The position numbers and the translations under genes are program-made. 64,000 nucleotides of DNA from Turneriella sp. (lineage in GTDB: Bacteria; Spirochaetota; Leptospiria; Turneriellales; Turneriellaceae). Below the pieces are notes generated by a model. The model was not told the origin of the DNA. It was given only the letters and a program-made list of their open reading frames with translations, and did not search any database. The stretch spans positions 62,001 to 126,000 of the forward strand of contig JABARV010000017.1 in NCBI GenBank assembly GCA_019186965.1, written 5' to 3'. Below are positions 5,124 through 16,940 of this stretch, in pieces. Position 1 is the stretch's first letter; every line of letters starts with the position of its first letter.

Positions 5124-7193
5124 ATGCCAGCGCCTCAAATGTCCGGTCTCGCATCGGGAATTGACACCAAAGATATTGTACGTAAACTTGTCGAAGTTGA
5201 AAGGGCGCCAATTACCCGCTTAGAAAATAACAAGCGCGAACTTTCCGATACAAACAAGGCGTTGAACGAATTACGTAAACGCACAAAAACCCTCCAAGAT
5301 GCCCTCCATGCAATGACCTCCTTTGAGGCAGCTTTTGAACAAAAAAGGCTTAAAGCAGAACCTCCTGGAATTTTAGACGGGAGTGTACGTAAAAACGCAC
5401 CCCTTTCAACACATACCGTTAATGTCTTGCAACTTGCGTCGAAATTGAGCATTGCAACAAGCCCACTTGAAACGGGTAAAAAGCTTCCCGCTGCACGAAT
5501 AAAAATCGGCGACACCAGTTCAAATTTTACAGGAGGCACGCTATCTGCCCTGCGCGAACACCTCCAAAAATACCATGGTAAACAAATAAATACAAGTATT
5601 GTGCAGGTAAAAGAGAATGAATCGATACTTGTTGTCGACAGCATCGAAGAAGGGGAAAACGCACTACTTAAAATTGAAGACCCTGACGGCCTTTTAAAAT
5701 CATTAGGGCTCATTAGCGGCGTGGCGTTACCCAATACAGATAAAAAAGAAAAAGCAAAACCAGACAAAAAAGAGGCTCCAAAAAAAGACGAAAAAGAAAC
5801 GGAGGAAATTGAGCTTTGGGCAGTCAATCCAGCGCAATTAGAGACAGCAGTAGGAGCTCCTCCTCAACTTAGCGAGGACAAGAAGTCAATGACTGTTCCG
5901 GAAAATTCTACAAGCCGGTATAAATTTTTGGCAGGGCAGTTAAGCGTAGCAAATAAGCGTTTAACAAAAATTTCGTTATCTGCAATGCCTCCCCAGGGCG
6001 CAGAGGCAAACGATGATGCGCCTGAAAGTTTGAACGATGGGGCACGCGATAATCTTAATATTAAGGGAATTGAACTTGAGACGTATAATATCACGCGGAC
6101 ACGCCGGAAGGAAATACTTAAAGATAGTGACTACGGTGTGGTATTGCGCTTTGAAAATGGAAGCGAAAAGAAAATTTCACTTAAAGGAAAATCTGGTAAA
6201 CAAGATTTCGCGGTTGAAGCTGGGTTAAATTCTGTCGATTTTTATTCTCTCGGCGCGGATGTCCTTTTTGAACCGATGGCGCTGACGTACATGGTGAAAC
6301 CACAACCTAAAATTGACCCAACAAATGAAGAGAAATCCCAAACTCCGCACGAAGCAGAGCAGAGAAAAGTTTTTCCAAACTTGATTCGGGCAGCGCAAAA
6401 CGCAGAACTCAAAATTGACGGTGTGCGTATTACCCGTAAAACAAACCGAAATTTATCGGATATTATCGAAGGTGTTTCGTTGAACCTTTTACGCGCCTCT
6501 ACAGATAACGTACAAACCGAAATTTTAAACGATAACGAGACTGCGCAAAAGCAGGTTGTAAGCTTTGTAAAAGCATACAACGAACTTTTGCAATTTGCCG
6601 ACGAGAACGCTAAAGTAGCCCGTGTTAAAGAAGCGGGAAGATACCAAGAGATGCGAAAAGAATCAGGGGTATTGGCAACAAATGCAACAATCCGCCAGCT
6701 TGTCAATGGGCTTAGGATGCATACGTCGAACGCGTATCCGACGTTGCGAGAACCCCATTTTCGTACTTTGGCACAAATTGGAATATCGACTGGCCCTATA
6801 GGTGCCGACAGAGAGGAAGTCATTAAAGGCTATTTACAGGTAGACGAGGCAAAACTGTCGCAAGCGTTCGCCGAATCGCCGCGTGCGGTAAAAGAACTTT
6901 TCGCAAGCGATATTAACGGCGATTTGCGTTTGGATAATGGGTATGCCTACGTAACGGAAAAGTTTTTAGAGCCGTTTACTCGCTTTACCCGTGGCCTTAT
7001 TACCGAGCAAATTAAATCCAATTCTGAACGCAGCAAACAAATAGACCGCGATATTAAGCGCCAAGAAGAACACGTTAAAAACTTTGAGGCCAAGCTACGC
7101 ACAAAATTTGGTTATATGGAAAGCTCTGTCATGAAGAGTAAATCAACAGGAAAGTATCTTAAACAAAAACTGGGTGTGAAAGAAGATCAATAA
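5124..7193 (+). CDS. fliD: Flagellar filament cap protein FliD (HAP2)
   Basis: FliD caps the growing flagellar filament and guides flagellin folding. The N-terminus SGLASGIDTKDIVRKLVEVERAPI is the conserved FliD_N start, followed by a long heptad-rich helix (about 35-65). The C-terminal half contains VVSFVKAYNELLQFADENA and a closing coiled-coil helix (about 635-670), as expected for FliD_C. The 689-residue length is near that of other spirochaete FliDs. Two features are odd: a Lys/Glu low-complexity insert at about 207-235, and another charged linker with GAEANDDAPES near 300. AGGGAAAAAAG precedes the ATG. Its presence implies periplasmic flagella. Confidence 0.92.
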   Translation: MPAPQMSGLASGIDTKDIVRKLVEVERAPITRLENNKRELSDTNKALNELRKRTKTLQDALHAMTSFEAAFEQKRLKAEPPGILDGSVRKNAPLSTHTVNVLQLASKLSIATSPLETGKKLPAARIKIGDTSSNFTGGTLSALREHLQKYHGKQINTSIVQVKENESILVVDSIEEGENALLKIEDPDGLLKSLGLISGVALPNTDKKEKAKPDKKEAPKKDEKETEEIELWAVNPAQLETAVGAPPQLSEDKKSMTVPENSTSRYKFLAGQLSVANKRLTKISLSAMPPQGAEANDDAPESLNDGARDNLNIKGIELETYNITRTRRKEILKDSDYGVVLRFENGSEKKISLKGKSGKQDFAVEAGLNSVDFYSLGADVLFEPMALTYMVKPQPKIDPTNEEKSQTPHEAEQRKVFPNLIRAAQNAELKIDGVRITRKTNRNLSDIIEGVSLNLLRASTDNVQTEILNDNETAQKQVVSFVKAYNELLQFADENAKVARVKEAGRYQEMRKESGVLATNATIRQLVNGLRMHTSNAYPTLREPHFRTLAQIGISTGPIGADREEVIKGYLQVDEAKLSQAFAESPRAVKELFASDINGDLRLDNGYAYVTEKFLEPFTRFTRGLITEQIKSNSERSKQIDRDIKRQEEHVKNFEAKLRTKFGYMESSVMKSKSTGKYLKQKLGVKEDQ

Positions 7194-10468: not shown

Positions 10469-11026
10469 ATGGATTACCTTGAGCAGATTTATACCGATAA
10501 CGAAAAATTTCGAGCCATGGTTGTTTTTATCCTGCGCAAGTTACCGGGAAAATTAAACCGTGTAGCTTTGTGTAAAAACTTGTATTACGCCGAGACCCAC
10601 TTTTTCCAAAAACACCAAAAAACCATTACAGGGCTCGATTATCTGCACGTTGAGTCTTCGCCGGTACCTCGTTTTTTTAACGAAATAATTAGCGCGATGG
10701 TTGCAAAAGAAGAAGTCCGCATTGTACCGCACGTTGCTCCAGAAGTTATTAACGGGCGCCAAATTATGGTTTTACGCGGGATGGTTTTTGAATGCGACGC
10801 GCCTCTTTTGGCTGTGCTTAACCGCGATGAATTACGCGCTGTGCGGATGGTCGCATCTACATTACAAAATGAAATGAACTTAGAAACACGGTATTTTCCC
10901 CAATACTACCAGCACTATGTACAGACGGGGCTTTACGAAACCATTCCTTTTGTAAAGTTTCCCAAACGTCCACATTTACAGTTTAAGGCCTGGAGCCGCA
11001 AAATCTATCGTCTTATGTGGCAATAG
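10469..11026 (+). CDS. Panacea/SocA-like (DUF4065-type) domain protein
   Basis: The 185-residue protein resembles the Panacea/SocA-like domain: FILRKLPGKLNRVALCKNLYYAETHFFQKHQKTITGLDY (about 16-58) mimics the family pattern of a KLxKLLYFAD helix followed by G-x-P-I-T-G-x-D-Y, and then SSPVPRFFNEIISAMVAKEEVRIV. In toxin-antitoxin systems this domain neutralises diverse toxins; in phage proteins and SocA it acts as an adaptor. No toxin gene is evident beside it, only a possible divergent remnant cut by the palindromic element. The ATG follows GGAGG. The last ten bases, including the stop, are the first ten bases of the 55-bp repeat downstream. The domain call is by eye and needs profile confirmation. 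Confidence 0.6.
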   Translation: MDYLEQIYTDNEKFRAMVVFILRKLPGKLNRVALCKNLYYAETHFFQKHQKTITGLDYLHVESSPVPRFFNEIISAMVAKEEVRIVPHVAPEVINGRQIMVLRGMVFECDAPLLAVLNRDELRAVRMVASTLQNEMNLETRYFPQYYQHYVQTGLYETIPFVKFPKRPHLQFKAWSRKIYRLMWQ

Positions 11027-11194
11027 GACGTTGCATACTTCGCCACGCCATGGATGGCATTGTGGTGAAGTGTGGCAATAGGACGTTGCATACTTCGCCA
11101 CGCCACGGATGGCATTGTGGCGAAGTGTGGCAATAGGACGTTGCATACTTCGCCACGCCATGGATGGCATTGTGGCGAAGTGTGGCAATAGGAC
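11017..11194. repeat. 55-bp tandem hairpin repeat (three units plus 13 bases)
   Basis: Units start at 11017, 11072 and 11127, each beginning GTGGCAATAGGACGTTGCAT, with a partial fourth unit at 11182-11194. Units 1 and 2 each differ from unit 3 by one base. Within each unit ACTTCGCCAC pairs with GTGGCGAAGT around an inner GCCA/TGGC pair, so each can form a hairpin; the unit 1 change only turns one pair into G-U. The first unit begins inside the 3' end of the upstream gene, so its terminus and stop codon have been repeated. Small minus-strand ORFs here are by-products of the repeat. Confidence 0.95.
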
Positions 11195-11201
11195 ATGCTC
11201 G

Positions 11202-13514
11202 TTAGATAAATTTTGTAATATGTTCTGGCCTTATACCTTTAAGGGAGGAAATTCCCAAAACACGCATTGTTTGTTTAAGCTCTTCGTTATACGAGCGGAT
11301 TAGGCTCTGCACTCCGCACCGACCGTACCCAACTGCAATTATTGCGATCGGCCTTCCGACAAGAACTGCTTCGGCGCCCAAAGCCAGCATACGAAAAACA
11401 TCTGCTCCTGAGCGTACGCCGCCGTCTGCTAAAACTTGCATCTTGGGTGCATTGAGTTTTACCCATGCGGCAATTTGTGGCAAGACGCGTGCGGTTCCAG
11501 GGAGCGCATCAAGTACTCTGCCGCCATGGTTTGAAACGACAATTGCCGATGCACCTGCAAGAGCGGCAATTTCAGCGTCGCGTATGTTCATCACTCCTTT
11601 GATAATAAAAGGAAGCGATGACGCTAAACGTAATTCTTTAAGTTCTTCTAAAGACTTATGGCGGGTTTCGGCGCTTTTTAACACCATCGTTTTAAAAGAG
11701 ACACCGTCGATATCCATTGCCCAAGCTGTTGCTCCCGATTTTTCAGCGTCTTTAATCCGCAAAATTAGCTCTTTTTGGTTACTGCGGGGCTTAAAGACAG
11801 GGATACCTTTTCCCAAGCCTTCGATGGCGTGCAGGCCAATTTTATATTTGTCGGGTGAAGCTCCATCGCCAAAAGTGGGGATAAGATTTAAAGCCACCAT
11901 CGCAGAACCTGTTTCCATTGCATAATCGTATTCGGTAATGGAGCCTCCCATGTTGGTAACGCTTCCTGTGATGGGAGCGGACAAGATAGGCGCCGAAAAT
12001 GTAAGGGCTTTACTATGGAAAAGCTGGAATGAAATGTCGATTTCTTTTTCAGGAGGTATTTGGTGGATGTAACTGGGAGCAATTTTGTATTCTTGCAGGG
12101 CATTAATGTTGTCTTGAAAACTATCCATGAGGCCAGGGCCCCCCATCCCGGGAACGCTTGAGGCGCAATAAACACCGTCGCAAACCTTGCATACCCAACA
12201 AAACGCATTATTCCATTTTGTGCGTGAAGCTTTGGACATTTTGCGCCAGTTATATTCTGGAATTTTTGTCGTAAATTTTAGGCGCTCCTTTACGCTTTCG
12301 TACAAATTTTCTGCGCTACTTAAAGTGTCGCTTTGGATTACTGTGTGGTAGACTTTACCCACGTTGTTTTGCAGGTTTGAGACGGTGTCGCCATTTTGGT
12401 AGTTTTTAAAAATTCGGATTAAACCTTGTGGCCGAAATTCATTTTCGAGTTGTTGTATTTCTTCCGCGCTTTTAAGGTTGCACAACTCTCCTGCGGTAGC
12501 GTACATAGAGCGCTCAATTGCAAAAGCCTTTGTTTGTATCGACTCTGCATAAGGAAGGATTACCGATGCGTCGTGCTGCATTAGGCGGATAAACATCTGC
12601 ATTAAATTTTTTTTATGCGCAGCGGGGTAGGTGTGTGTGCTCATAAACCCTCCTGAAAGTCTACCGGCAATTTCTCCGATAAAGAGTTCACCTTGAGGTG
12701 TAAGGCGTAAATCTCCCTTGAGGGCGCCATGGTACGGTTTATTGGACAGAGAAGAAAGCGCGTCTGCGTAACGCTGCATTGTATTTTGTATAAGAGTGTA
12801 TTCTTTTGAAGAGAAATTTCCAGGAAGAGTATGTCCTGTTTCAATAAAAAAATGGCGGTCTTTAATTTCAATAATGCGATCTGCGACTCCCGTCAAAAAA
12901 ACTTTTCCTTCAAAAGAAAGCGCATCGACAGAAATTTCTCTTGCCTCGATAAAATGCTCCAGAATAATTTCATTTTTTTTATCTTTAGTAGAGGCAAATT
13001 CAAAAGCAAAAGCGAGTTCATCCGCCCTTTTTAAATACATGACGCCTCGTGCGCCCATATTTTGTGCAGGTTTTATAACATACCCTTTTTCAGAAGGGTT
13101 TTCTTTTGCCCAAGTTTCTGCATCTTCTTTTTTTTGCGTTACAATAAAAGGCGGGCATAGAAAGCCATTTGTTTTGCAAAAATTGCGCATTTCGCCTTTA
13201 TGGGTAAGAATTTTTCCTTGCGCAAAGTTTGGCCCCGTAAGCTTTAAAGCGTCGTTTATATAACCTACTATATGCGTAAAATCGGTGGCGACAGTTGCGA
13301 CAAATTTTAGCCTTTCACGATAAGGGACTAGCGCCGAAAGAACTTTTTCACCATCGGAGATTTGTACAGTTAAAAAAATATCTGCATCTTTTGCAGCAAT
13401 CGCCTCAGGGTTTTGGTCGAGAGCAATTGTGTAAAGTCCTCTATCTTTCGCTTCTTGCAGAAAAGGCTGCTGCAAAAGGCCAGCACCTAAAAGCGCGACT
13501 GCGTTTTTTTGCAT
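11202..13514 (-). CDS. ATP-grasp / FMN-dependent 2-hydroxyacid dehydrogenase-like fusion
   Basis: This 770-residue protein joins two enzymes. Residues 1 to about 400 form an ATP-grasp carboxylate-ligase-like unit: a Rossmann-like start (AVALLGAGLLQQPFL), then KGYVIKPAQNMGARGVMYLK, IILEHFIEAREISVDAL and DLRLTPQGELFIGEIAGRLSGG. Around 439-447 lies CKVCDGVYC followed by SVPGMGGPG, then a TIM-barrel of the LldD/glycolate-oxidase class: FIIKGVMN (Lys), IVVSNHGGRVLDALPG (catalytic His and Arg, about 661), and VLADGGVRSGADVFRMLALGAEAVLVGRP for FMN phosphate. The D-x-P-x-L-G-x-R loop of hydroxyacid oxidases is changed to MDIDGVSFK, so the substrate may differ. It is the last gene of the operon that begins with the glycosidase. 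Confidence 0.85.
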   Translation of the reverse strand: MQKNAVALLGAGLLQQPFLQEAKDRGLYTIALDQNPEAIAAKDADIFLTVQISDGEKVLSALVPYRERLKFVATVATDFTHIVGYINDALKLTGPNFAQGKILTHKGEMRNFCKTNGFLCPPFIVTQKKEDAETWAKENPSEKGYVIKPAQNMGARGVMYLKRADELAFAFEFASTKDKKNEIILEHFIEAREISVDALSFEGKVFLTGVADRIIEIKDRHFFIETGHTLPGNFSSKEYTLIQNTMQRYADALSSLSNKPYHGALKGDLRLTPQGELFIGEIAGRLSGGFMSTHTYPAAHKKNLMQMFIRLMQHDASVILPYAESIQTKAFAIERSMYATAGELCNLKSAEEIQQLENEFRPQGLIRIFKNYQNGDTVSNLQNNVGKVYHTVIQSDTLSSAENLYESVKERLKFTTKIPEYNWRKMSKASRTKWNNAFCWVCKVCDGVYCASSVPGMGGPGLMDSFQDNINALQEYKIAPSYIHQIPPEKEIDISFQLFHSKALTFSAPILSAPITGSVTNMGGSITEYDYAMETGSAMVALNLIPTFGDGASPDKYKIGLHAIEGLGKGIPVFKPRSNQKELILRIKDAEKSGATAWAMDIDGVSFKTMVLKSAETRHKSLEELKELRLASSLPFIIKGVMNIRDAEIAALAGASAIVVSNHGGRVLDALPGTARVLPQIAAWVKLNAPKMQVLADGGVRSGADVFRMLALGAEAVLVGRPIAIIAVGYGRCGVQSLIRSYNEELKQTMRVLGISSLKGIRPEHITKFI

Positions 13515-13847
13515 TTATAGGGCGTTAAAACGCTCAATTACAAAAGAGTGTAGTCCTGCGTCGGTCTCGGGTTTTATTGCCGCAAAAATTTCACGATGAA
13601 CCTCAATACGCGATTTCCCCTTAAAATTTGCGTCGCTAATATGCAAACGGAAGTGGGTTTGTCCTTTGCGGGTGGCGCCGTATGTTGCCGCATGCTCGCG
13701 TGCGCCTTCGGGTGTGTTGCTTGTTGGGCTTTCGTGCGCCAAAACTTCTGAGTGGTCTGCGTGGTGCGCAGAGTCGTTGAATAAAGTAAAACTTGCGTTG
13801 GGGAAACGCTCGCGTAAAAGTGCTTCGAGTCTTTCGTGGCGTGTCAT
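13515..13847 (-). CDS. BolA-family protein with a His-rich insertion
   Basis: BolA proteins work with monothiol glutaredoxins in iron-sulphur cluster handling. The second half is clearly BolA: GQTHFRLHISDANFKGKSRIEVHREIFAAI and GLHSFVIERF, matching the THFxVxIxSxxFxGxxxxxRHRxVY and HAL patterns. The usual short loop between the first strand and the THF strand is replaced by a longer His-rich segment (about residues 26-60, with HHADH and REHAATYG). The product is 110 residues. Its stop abuts the start of the fusion gene, and it follows lplA by 7 bases, so all are one transcript. Its pairing with lplA fits a link between cluster supply and lipoylation. Confidence 0.85.
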   Translation of the reverse strand: MTRHERLEALLRERFPNASFTLFNDSAHHADHSEVLAHESPTSNTPEGAREHAATYGATRKGQTHFRLHISDANFKGKSRIEVHREIFAAIKPETDAGLHSFVIERFNAL

Positions 13848-13854
13848 GGACGTC

Positions 13855-14574
13855 TTATCTTGAAACGGATTCCGTTTGAAAAGGCGTAATGAAAGTTGTG
13901 TCTTCTATCTTTAAAGAGCGAAGGGTTGCCCCGAAACTTTGGGCAATTCCTAAGCGTACGTAACGCATTAAGGTTGTGCGCGTATAGCAGGGAAGGGTGT
14001 GCGCCATAAAACCTTTGTGCGTACGTCCCTCACGGTACTTAGGTTCTTTAGGTGGAGGGCGTAGGTAGTACGGTATTTCGCGCACTGCACGCTTTGAATA
14101 GAGCAATGTACCATGGTGCATAATGAGCCCACGCTTACGGCACTGCGCGTTTCCAGAGAATTTTCGCATTTCCCCTTTTGTGAAAAAAGCAAGGTCTGAG
14201 TAACCTTTGCGCGAAATATTTTTTCCTAAAAAATATTTTACTGCGTCTAAAATTTTTTCATAAGAGTAAGAGACATTAAACATTTCTGGAAAATCCGACA
14301 GGGATAAAAATAAACTAAAATTAAGGTTGCCTACCGTGTGGAGTACAGACCCCCCGCCTGAAATACGGCGGTATACAGGGGGATGTTTTTTTGTGGTGTA
14401 AATTTCATTTTCAATTTCGAGAGATTTTCCCAAAACTAAAGATGAAAAATTTTCGTAGAAAAATAAATACATTGTTTGCGGTGTAATTTTTCGGCGCAAG
14501 AATTCATCCTCGAACGCAAGGTTTATCGCTGCACTTTTTGACTTTAGTTCAGCAGTATAAAGCGTTAAAGACAT
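13855..14574 (-). CDS. lplA: Lipoate/octanoate-protein ligase-like protein
   Basis: The enzyme family attaches lipoate or octanoate to E2 and GcvH domains. Family motifs are present: SSLVLGKSLEIENE, YRRISGGGSVLHTVGNLNFSL (the RRxSGGGxVxHDxGNLNxS loop), and RKFSGNAQCRKRGLIMHHGTLL (K-x-S-G-x-A-Q-x-x-x-H-x-x-H-x-G-x-L) for adenylate binding. At 239 residues it lacks the C-terminal accessory domain of E. coli LplA, so it could be the short LplA/LipM-type form. Its start overlaps the end of the glycosidase gene by 10 bases. Confidence 0.9.
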   Translation of the reverse strand: MSLTLYTAELKSKSAAINLAFEDEFLRRKITPQTMYLFFYENFSSLVLGKSLEIENEIYTTKKHPPVYRRISGGGSVLHTVGNLNFSLFLSLSDFPEMFNVSYSYEKILDAVKYFLGKNISRKGYSDLAFFTKGEMRKFSGNAQCRKRGLIMHHGTLLYSKRAVREIPYYLRPPPKEPKYREGRTHKGFMAHTLPCYTRTTLMRYVRLGIAQSFGATLRSLKIEDTTFITPFQTESVSR

Positions 14575-16940
14575 TTACGTTGTACAAGCTTGAGGCGTAC
14601 ATCCCCGTCGTGTTTGTCAAGAAGGTAGTATGTTCGCTCGTCGCTCAAGTGGAGTAAAATATGTGAGGGAGGAATTTTTTGTAGAGGTGTGTTTGTTTTT
14701 TCGTAATACGCGTCATAACCAACGGGAAGCGAAAAAATATGTGTTTCTTCTTTGGAAATGTTTGATAAATGTAGTACTTTATCTTTGAGGCGAAGCGACG
14801 CTGTTGAATGCGGTGTGTAGATATTTTCTACAGAAGCGCCCGCTTCAAGCCACTTATTCCTAAAACCCGAAAGCCAAATAAGCGCACGCTTTTTGTCTTG
14901 TAGGGTTACTTCGCGCACAATTAAATTGCGGATAATAATTATTGCCTCCGCAGATGCCCAACCGTGGAAACCATCTCCCATACAACCGCCACGTGTGCGT
15001 ATATTTATCGCTTCGGGGTAAGTGTATGCCTTTTGAGCGCGGTCTTTGATTGTACGCAAGATTTTTCGTGCCTGTGAAGTTTTTCCTATATAAAGATAGC
15101 TTTCCGCCATTTGCAATGTTAAATAAGGGTTTAATCCTGAATGGATGTTTTCTTGAAAAAAACAGCCGTTAAAGAAATAATTTTCGTGGATAATCGAAAG
15201 CGTGCGTAAAAATCTTTCATCACAAAATTCGCTTAACTCGAGGGGGTATCCAACAATTACGGAACCAATCATCCCTGCATCTTTAGTACGGCCAAGTGCG
15301 GCGGGAAAATATGCATACGCTTCAAGGTAGCATTTTAAATTTTCGACCAAAGAGGTGTAGAGATTTTGGGCACGCACGTTGAGTTCGGTATTTTGGATGT
15401 AAGGAAGAATTTCTTTAAGACCTCCCAACGCCCAAAAATTATCCCAGAGGTACCAATCGGCGGGACCTAAATGTTCGGCAGAAAATCCTGGAGGCAAAAC
15501 CCCGCAGTTGTCGGTAAGAGTTCTCTCAAACCAGCCAAGCATGCGACCAATTTGTTTCTGCATTTTATCTACTATAGATGTGTCGTGCGTGTAGGTAGTG
15601 TATTTAGCTAAAATCCAGAGCGCTTGCCCGTTTGCATCCCACTCGCCGCTTTGCGAGGCAAAAAGCCCAGAAGGCTTTACCATGTTTGTGAAACGTTCGA
15701 TAATAGGCTTTACCGCCTTGTGTGCGCCTAAAAGCAACAGTGCGTACATCATTATTACTGCATCGCGTATCCAAAAATGGTGGTATGTATAAGAACCGGG
15801 CTTTATCGAATCAAAATCCCAAAGCGCAATCAGGTGTTCTTTTGCATGGCGTAGCCAAGTTCCGTAGTCTTTGTAAAGGTGCGCGTTTAAAGTTTTACCA
15901 AAAAATACATCCACAATTTCAGCGGCGCTTTTCATTTGGAATGCATTGGGCAAAATATCGCCTTGGTGGTCTTCGATGTGTCCGCTCAATGTGTCGGCTT
16001 TGTCAAAAAAGAACGACGCGGTGCTTAGTCCCGTGGTGTCCTTTATGTCGCTAACTTCTAAGTCGCCTTCCTGTGGGTTTCGCATTTGTGCAGCAATGCG
16101 ACGGAGCGCATCCCCCGATTGCCTATTGGATAAGAGGAACCGCGACGGAGCAGCGTTAAAGGTGAAATCTACATCGCCTGTTAAGTGCATTTTTTTTTCG
16201 TTGTAATGGAGTTTGTAAATGAGCGCAGGACCTTCAAAATTAAAGGGGCGTACAGAAAAAAGGAGGGGTTTGTTTCCTTTTGCTTGAAATTCAATGCCGC
16301 ACTCTGTGGCAGTGTAAGTAATTGTAATCCCCTGCCACTTGCATTCGATTTGGTAGGAAGATTTAAGATTTATCTCAACATTTTTTTCATCGCTTTGTGG
16401 GCGAAGCACCCGTTCGTTCTCGAGCGTTGCAAACTCGACGGTGTAAGAACCTGGGTATACCATAATGCTTCCTGCCATATCAACAGAAGCTTCGAGAGAG
16501 CGTCCCGGAAAGCCGATTCCAATCCAGTTGCGGTGCGTTTGATTAATCGATAAAACATTGTGCGAGCGCGGCAAAAAAGAACGCGAAGCTGGGTTGTATT
16601 GTTTTTCAGCCCAGTACGGTGGCAGAAATTTTCTATTAAATTGAAAAAAACTATAGTTCCAAAAACCAGAGGCAAAAACTCGCGCATTCATAGGGATTGT
16701 TTCCTGTGGCCATTGTGCCTTTGTCGGATTACCAAGCTTCATTGCCGAGCGTAGCATATCGGTTGCATCGTGCGTAAACCCGATGCGGCGTAAAAAAAAA
16801 CGAGCAATAGCAAGTTTTATGCGATGCCAGCGCGAATCTTTTTGTAAAATTTCATGGTCTTGGAATCTCAAAGGAGAGGTTGGAGGCTTTCTTAAAGGCA
16901 CGCGTAATAATTTTATTTTTAGACAGGGGGAAACCCACAA
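14565..16940 (-). CDS. Six-hairpin glycosidase (GH15/GDE-like), cytoplasmic
   Basis: The protein of up to 791 residues has an N-terminal beta-rich half (about 90-300) and a C-terminal alpha/alpha-barrel half. The barrel has YTYHHFWIRDAVIMMYALLLLG (about 385), ASQSGEWDANGQALWILAKY, GPADWYLWDNFWALGGL, a pattern seen in GH15 and amylo-1,6-glucosidase-type enzymes; the Asp and Glu residues in WIRDA and GEWDANG are candidate catalytic or substrate-binding residues. No signal peptide is seen, so an internal glucan or trehalose-type substrate is plausible. The start is uncertain: the frame opens with a TTG at 16940, and ATGs occur inside. It heads the operon with lplA, the BolA gene and the fusion gene. 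Confidence 0.75.
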   Translation of the reverse strand: MWVSPCLKIKLLRVPLRKPPTSPLRFQDHEILQKDSRWHRIKLAIARFFLRRIGFTHDATDMLRSAMKLGNPTKAQWPQETIPMNARVFASGFWNYSFFQFNRKFLPPYWAEKQYNPASRSFLPRSHNVLSINQTHRNWIGIGFPGRSLEASVDMAGSIMVYPGSYTVEFATLENERVLRPQSDEKNVEINLKSSYQIECKWQGITITYTATECGIEFQAKGNKPLLFSVRPFNFEGPALIYKLHYNEKKMHLTGDVDFTFNAAPSRFLLSNRQSGDALRRIAAQMRNPQEGDLEVSDIKDTTGLSTASFFFDKADTLSGHIEDHQGDILPNAFQMKSAAEIVDVFFGKTLNAHLYKDYGTWLRHAKEHLIALWDFDSIKPGSYTYHHFWIRDAVIMMYALLLLGAHKAVKPIIERFTNMVKPSGLFASQSGEWDANGQALWILAKYTTYTHDTSIVDKMQKQIGRMLGWFERTLTDNCGVLPPGFSAEHLGPADWYLWDNFWALGGLKEILPYIQNTELNVRAQNLYTSLVENLKCYLEAYAYFPAALGRTKDAGMIGSVIVGYPLELSEFCDERFLRTLSIIHENYFFNGCFFQENIHSGLNPYLTLQMAESYLYIGKTSQARKILRTIKDRAQKAYTYPEAINIRTRGGCMGDGFHGWASAEAIIIIRNLIVREVTLQDKKRALIWLSGFRNKWLEAGASVENIYTPHSTASLRLKDKVLHLSNISKEETHIFSLPVGYDAYYEKTNTPLQKIPPSHILLHLSDERTYYLLDKHDGDVRLKLVQRKCL

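Follow-up and report, generated by a model that had tools for sequence, protein, structure and literature searches.

The closest described systems to the locus studied here are two enzyme families, a group of stand-alone proteins and a glycan pathway. The PF01070 family includes glycolate oxidase, LldD, mandelate oxidase and MftD, and the ATP-grasp L-amino acid ligases include BL00235, RizA and BacD. Stand-alone proteins of the FMN_dh family, 337 to 350 amino acids (aa) long and carrying four cysteines, are found in Clostridia, Nitrospirae and Desulfobacterota. For the flagellin glycan of Treponema denticola, the predicted pathway genes fit a methylated hydroxy-acyl nonulosonic acid. The sugar is said, in work attributed to Kurniyati in 2017, to be a pseudaminic-type acid whose N7 carries a 2-methoxy-4,5,6-trihydroxyhexanoyl group, and we know of no enzyme of the acyl step. 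PMC9481697 describes this glycan, of 450.2 Da, as essential for filament assembly and motility.

We analyzed a window of 64,000 nucleotides from Turneriella sp. (contig JABARV010000017.1, positions 62,001 to 126,000). Four minus-strand genes were found with the overlap and gaps exactly where the initial annotation had placed them, and this spacing suggests that they are co-transcribed. The features are as follows.

11202..13514, minus strand: fusion gene, 770 aa; gap of 0 to the BolA gene
12255..13514, minus strand: ATP-grasp half (residues 1 to 420), with the fold of the L-amino acid ligase BL00235 (3vot) and of 4dim
12165..12200, minus strand: four-cysteine motif C439-x2-C442-x2-C445-x4-C450, candidate [4Fe-4S] site
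11202..12107, minus strand: FMN_dh half, 2-hydroxy-acid dehydrogenase fold, from a profile match and conserved residues
13515..13847, minus strand: BolA-like protein gene, 110 aa; gap of 7; upstream of the fusion gene
13855..14574, minus strand: LplA-type lipoate/octanoate ligase gene, 239 aa; 10-base overlap with the glycosidase gene
14565..16940, minus strand: putative glycosidase gene, 791 aa; TTG start; weak trehalase/GDE-like match

Pfam matched the 110-aa protein to BolA (PF01722; E 1.6e-12) and the 239-aa protein to the LplA catalytic domain (PF21948; E 7.6e-28). The 791-aa protein is weakly assigned as a glycosidase, from matches to TreH1 trehalase (E 6.4e-7, far under its cut-off) and GDE_C (E 0.055). 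A promoter scan of the operon performed no better than on shuffled sequences. Just downstream of the fusion gene lies a 55-bp tandem repeat (11016-11194; 3.3 copies, 97 percent matches), which has no other occurrence within the window. Positions 10469-11026 encode a weakly matching SocA/Panacea antitoxin-like protein; four further genomes from this order have a homologue close to the fusion gene. A gene for the flagellar cap protein FliD occupies 5124-7193, 4 kb from the operon.

The 770-aa protein had been read from its letters as a carboxylate-ligase-like ATP-grasp domain fused to an LldD-type FMN enzyme, with a CxxC...C segment in between; Pfam, AlphaFold and Foldseek bore this out. FMN_dh (PF01070) matched residues 609 to 767 (E 2.1e-51; 175.5 bits versus a cut-off of 24.9), and ATP-grasp_4 (PF13535) matched residues 145 to 293 (E 9e-8). 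The AlphaFold model comprises two domains (mean pLDDT 92.5; pTM 0.89). Using Foldseek, we found that the N-terminal half shares its whole-length fold with the L-amino acid ligase 3vot_B (TM 0.84), while the C-terminal half, a TIM barrel, resembles mandelate and glycolate oxidases (TM about 0.78). Profile matches of the ATP-grasp half were to 4dim (E 4.9e-44) and 3vot (E 1.7e-41). In alignments of homologues, the motifs KPxxNMGARG and GEIAxRLSGGFMS were near-invariant in this half, and the charged residues K106, K148, E186, D268 and E281 were invariant. The modeled fold, with the conserved charged residues of the ATP site, places the half among the ATP-grasp proteins, and its greatest similarity appears to be with ligases that couple carboxylates and amines. 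It differs from the known L-amino acid ligases in its identity of 17 percent, its own motif GExAxRLSGGFMS, its flavin partner and its flagellar glycan link.

The flavin half is like the PF01070 enzymes in fold and profile and keeps K639, H663, R666 and D603, which correspond to the catalytic Lys230, His254, Arg257 and Asp157 of GOX. It differs from them in its N-terminal cysteine motif, in the ATP-grasp fusion and at three positions of the profile alignment: Arg577 replaces Tyr129, Asp601 replaces Thr155, and GOX Tyr24 has no aligned counterpart. Given the changes of Tyr129 to Arg and Thr155 to Asp, a simple 2-hydroxy acid is unlikely to be the substrate. By its sequence, this half would represent a divergent PF01070 branch without the substrate-binding Tyr24 and Tyr129, and we do not assume that it acts on simple 2-hydroxy acids. 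The segment between the domains in fact holds four cysteines (CX2CX2CX4C), which were kept in 46 of the 46 sequences having the segment and form a possible [4Fe-4S] site. The same four cysteines occur in the stand-alone proteins mentioned above, which are 41 to 49 percent identical to the flavin half but are not joined to an ATP-grasp half.

Our first homologue search covered 61 genomes of the phylum from 19 families. Full-length fused homologues, 30 to 67 percent identical, were found in most of these families, with the reading frame open throughout. This excludes a frameshift or sequencing error as the origin of the fusion, the circumstance under which the initial annotation would have given up its pathway idea, and we consider the fusion genuine. 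A wider sample of 149 spirochaete genomes contained the ATP-grasp half in 143 and the flavin half in 130; its tables gave an intact fusion in about 90. Outside the spirochaetes, a named scan located the fusion in Nitrospinota and Hydrogenedentota, as well as in a single groundwater bacterium that is unplaced. Clostridia, Nitrospirae and Desulfobacterota have the flavin half as a lone gene, and the 13 genomes with a stand-alone flavin gene that we tested had no orthologous ATP-grasp gene, adjacent or elsewhere. Conversely, several spirochaete lineages (f10, f11, f16, f25, f28, f32, f38, f40 and f41) have an ATP-grasp half but lack the flavin half, which is therefore unnecessary for ATP-grasp function there. 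In Brachyspira, the fused gene has an intact ATP-grasp half and a degenerate flavin half without cysteines (one aligned sequence, L058), and most Brachyspira genomes possess an additional, separate and intact flavin gene. In the Treponema family the halves are two genes; in each of the four genomes read, one of them a T. pallidum-sized genome of 1,139,633 bases, no cysteine of the four is missing from the flavin protein. Our literature search on this domain pairing and on the T. pallidum flavin gene returned only generic annotation.

Two further arrangements were observed. Directly upstream of the stand-alone flavin/four-cysteine gene in Firmicutes and a Sumerlaeota MAG (L136, L143, L122, L131, L146 and L164) is an HAD phosphatase gene; these genes are homologous to one another, and NCBIfam classes that of L136 as Cof-type. 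The HAD and flavin/four-cysteine genes are a conserved pair across phyla, and a Cof-type HAD gene also lies directly upstream of the flavin gene in the 1,139,633-base Treponema genome. In a Brachyspira-type genome, a putative biosynthetic cluster holds four ATP-grasp paralogues in tandem (G146:C90:7432-14232; E 1e-40 to 1e-48) and a radical-SAM match (11959-12819); the genome of L134 has a cluster at identical coordinates.

We compared the distribution of the ATP-grasp half, rather than that of the flavin half, with flagellin. Matches of E 1e-80 or better were counted as orthologues, and weaker, paralogue-level matches in four genomes (G195, G222, G237 and G312) were set aside. Flagellin was encoded in 117 of 159 genomes of the class Spirochaetia. 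Outside the Borrelia-like family f36, the ATP-grasp gene was present in 83 of 84 genomes with flagellin and in 1 of 42 without (Fisher P about 7e-31, for genomes that are related and not independent samples). The one flagellin-negative genome with the gene (G303) carries it with an internal stop. Flagellin-negative genomes identified by name fall in four families (f43 genus g89, f44, f47 and f48), and a further 22 were counted without names. Within f43, seven genomes of one genus lack both flagellin and the gene, and three of a sister genus have both. The 33 genomes of f36 encode flagellin and have neither the ATP-grasp nor the flavin gene. In the phylum sample, spiroSPASM showed nearly the same distribution as the ATP-grasp gene and was missing from the same two groups, f36 and G179. 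Flagellin is also encoded in each of the six fusion-bearing genomes from outside the spirochaetes that we tested. A link of the fusion's ATP-grasp half to flagella is thus well supported.

Gene order in genomes with split halves points to the kind of flagellar function. In several families, Treponema and relatives among them, the order is spiroSPASM, a GT-fold protein, a CTP_transf_3/PseG-like/methyltransferase protein, the ATP-grasp gene (here with a C-terminal extension), an N-acetylmuramoyl-alanine amidase, Germane and FlaA. SpiroSPASM is a radical SAM/SPASM protein (TIGR04321; 520 bits), and the 826-aa operon protein combines CMP-sugar synthetase (PF02348), PseG-like (TIGR03590; E 1.1e-7) and methyltransferase parts. 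Another operon protein, of 319 to 368 aa, matched nothing in Pfam or NCBIfam; its predicted fold resembles polypeptide (protein O-)GalNAc transferases (pLDDT 82; E 2.5e-12), which makes it a candidate flagellin glycosyltransferase. L180:2388-3347 and its relatives (alignment A4) are this GalNAc-transferase-like protein. In other classes, a CMP-sugar synthetase gene lay beside spiroSPASM in 12 of 20 loci read. In the 1,139,633-base Treponema genome, spiroSPASM, the GT-fold protein, a cytidylyl/methyltransferase protein and Cof HAD directly precede the flavin gene, so that the glycan genes adjoin this gene and not the ATP-grasp gene. The published annotations of TPASS_0285, 0289, 0290 and 0291, tabulated in PMC4403809, agree with this cluster. 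A correction (PMC5951579) notes misaligned cells in that table, and the agreement therefore rests on the gene order found here.

The fused gene of L055 is preceded, at a distance of 3 bases, by the gene for a methyltransferase of the cluster's family, itself downstream of a polysaccharide pyruvyltransferase gene. Nitrospinota have an HpcH/HpaI aldolase gene immediately behind the fused gene, with a gap of 0 or a few bases of overlap. Aldolases of this type make 2-keto-3-deoxy acids. Such aldolase-like genes (L082:5517-6302, and those at L080, L095, L104 and L099) adjoin the fused gene in Nitrospinota and in a single unplaced bacterium. The genome from which the window comes has CMP-sugar genes next to neither the fused gene nor spiroSPASM.

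The reading we favor, at roughly even confidence, is that the 770-aa protein takes part in glycosylating spirochaete flagellin, as an enzyme whose ATP-grasp half amide-links an acid to a sugar and whose flavin half sets the 2-keto/2-hydroxy state of that acid. The ATP-grasp half would activate a carboxylic acid with ATP and form an amide with an amino group on a nonulosonic acid, either CMP-linked or free. The FMN/four-cysteine half would set the C2 oxidation state of that acid, from 2-keto to 2-hydroxy or back, the cysteines possibly providing a [4Fe-4S] electron outlet, and the cluster methyltransferase could cap the 2-hydroxyl. The fitting product we take to be the acyl group of the T. denticola flagellin sugar, 2-methoxy-4,5,6-trihydroxyhexanoyl at N7 of a pseudaminic-type acid. 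This group corresponds to 2-keto-3-deoxygluconate after reduction at C2, O-methylation and amide linkage, for which the flavin enzyme, the methyltransferase and the ATP-grasp enzyme would be suited in turn; the steps may follow in that order.

This reading is favored by the predicted closeness of the ATP-grasp half to amide-making amino-acid ligases, by the apparent 2-hydroxy-acid oxidase fold of the flavin half with its catalytic Lys, His, Arg and Asp, and by the cluster context of the split halves, the L055 methyltransferase, the Nitrospinota aldolase, the co-occurrence with flagellin and the GalNAc-transferase-like fold. Against it stand the ATP-grasp-bearing lineages without a flavin half, the widespread stand-alone flavin genes of Clostridia, Nitrospirae and Desulfobacterota, the flagellin-bearing Borrelia-like family with neither gene, and the absence of CMP-sugar neighbors in the window's genome. 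The role of the ATP-grasp half in the flagellar glycan is the firmer part; that of the flavin half is weaker because several lineages do without it.

Some of these same observations would suit two functions joined by chance or convenience, with the ATP-grasp half serving the flagellar glycan and the flavin/four-cysteine half being, in its own right, a redox enzyme of anaerobes for 2-hydroxy acids or flavins. Each half occurs without the other, the flavin half in many anaerobes and the ATP-grasp half in many spirochaetes, and the Brachyspira arrangement, a degenerate flavin half fused to an intact ATP-grasp half, with a separate intact flavin gene, points the same way. However, the fusion persists over most of the phylum and in other phyla, and in the 1,139,633-base Treponema genome it is the flavin gene, away from the ATP-grasp gene, that sits among glycan genes; we think such a joining rather unlikely. 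The expectation that the pathway idea fails if the domains are usually separate with unrelated neighbors met a mixed outcome. In other phyla the flavin half mostly stands by itself, without an orthologous ATP-grasp in the genome; the split spirochaete halves have related neighbors. A mycofactocin-like redox peptide system, in which spiroSPASM would mature a peptide for oxidation by the MftD-like FMN half, with amino acids ligated by the ATP-grasp half, seems improbable. The flavin half has MftD (TIGR03966; E 1.4e-27) as one of its best named matches, and spiroSPASM is of the radical SAM/SPASM type, but the 96 bits obtained fall far short of the MftD equivalog cut-off of 470.85, and the CMP-sugar synthetase, PseG-like and FlaA neighbors and the flagellin tie fit a glycan better.

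The initial annotation had instead taken BolA and LplA as signs of an iron-sulfur or lipoyl pathway, acting on a 2-hydroxy acid. The window operon is tight, and further genomes from the same order likewise have LplA-type genes next to the fusion. Nevertheless, BolA lies beside the fusion in the same genus only, the glycosidase in that genus and one close genus, and LplA in the same order plus, on the opposite strand, one genus elsewhere; other genomes have MnmG, MnmA, an aspartyl protease or others in these places. An association that is only genus- to order-wide does not carry such a pathway, which we dismissed as a general explanation and regard as very improbable, and the BolA-like protein is probably outside the fusion's pathway. 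That both domains share a pathway remains plausible, since the split halves neighbor the same gene set; its iron-sulfur/lipoyl identity does not.

Spirochaete motility depends on glycosylated flagellin, and as far as our literature search showed, the enzymes that make the glycan are unassigned. It is possible, though we hold this only tentatively, that a single polypeptide prepares a 2-hydroxy (3-deoxy) sugar acid with its FMN/Fe-S half and attaches it as an amide to a flagellin nonulosonic acid with its ATP-grasp half. Such a route would differ from acyl-CoA-dependent N-acylation, and its ligase would serve nearly all flagellated spirochaetes outside the Borrelia-like family. Together, these results tie to the flagellin glycan pathway a set of near-universal spirochaete genes without names: those for the ATP-grasp, flavin/four-cysteine, spiroSPASM and GalNAc-transferase-like proteins.
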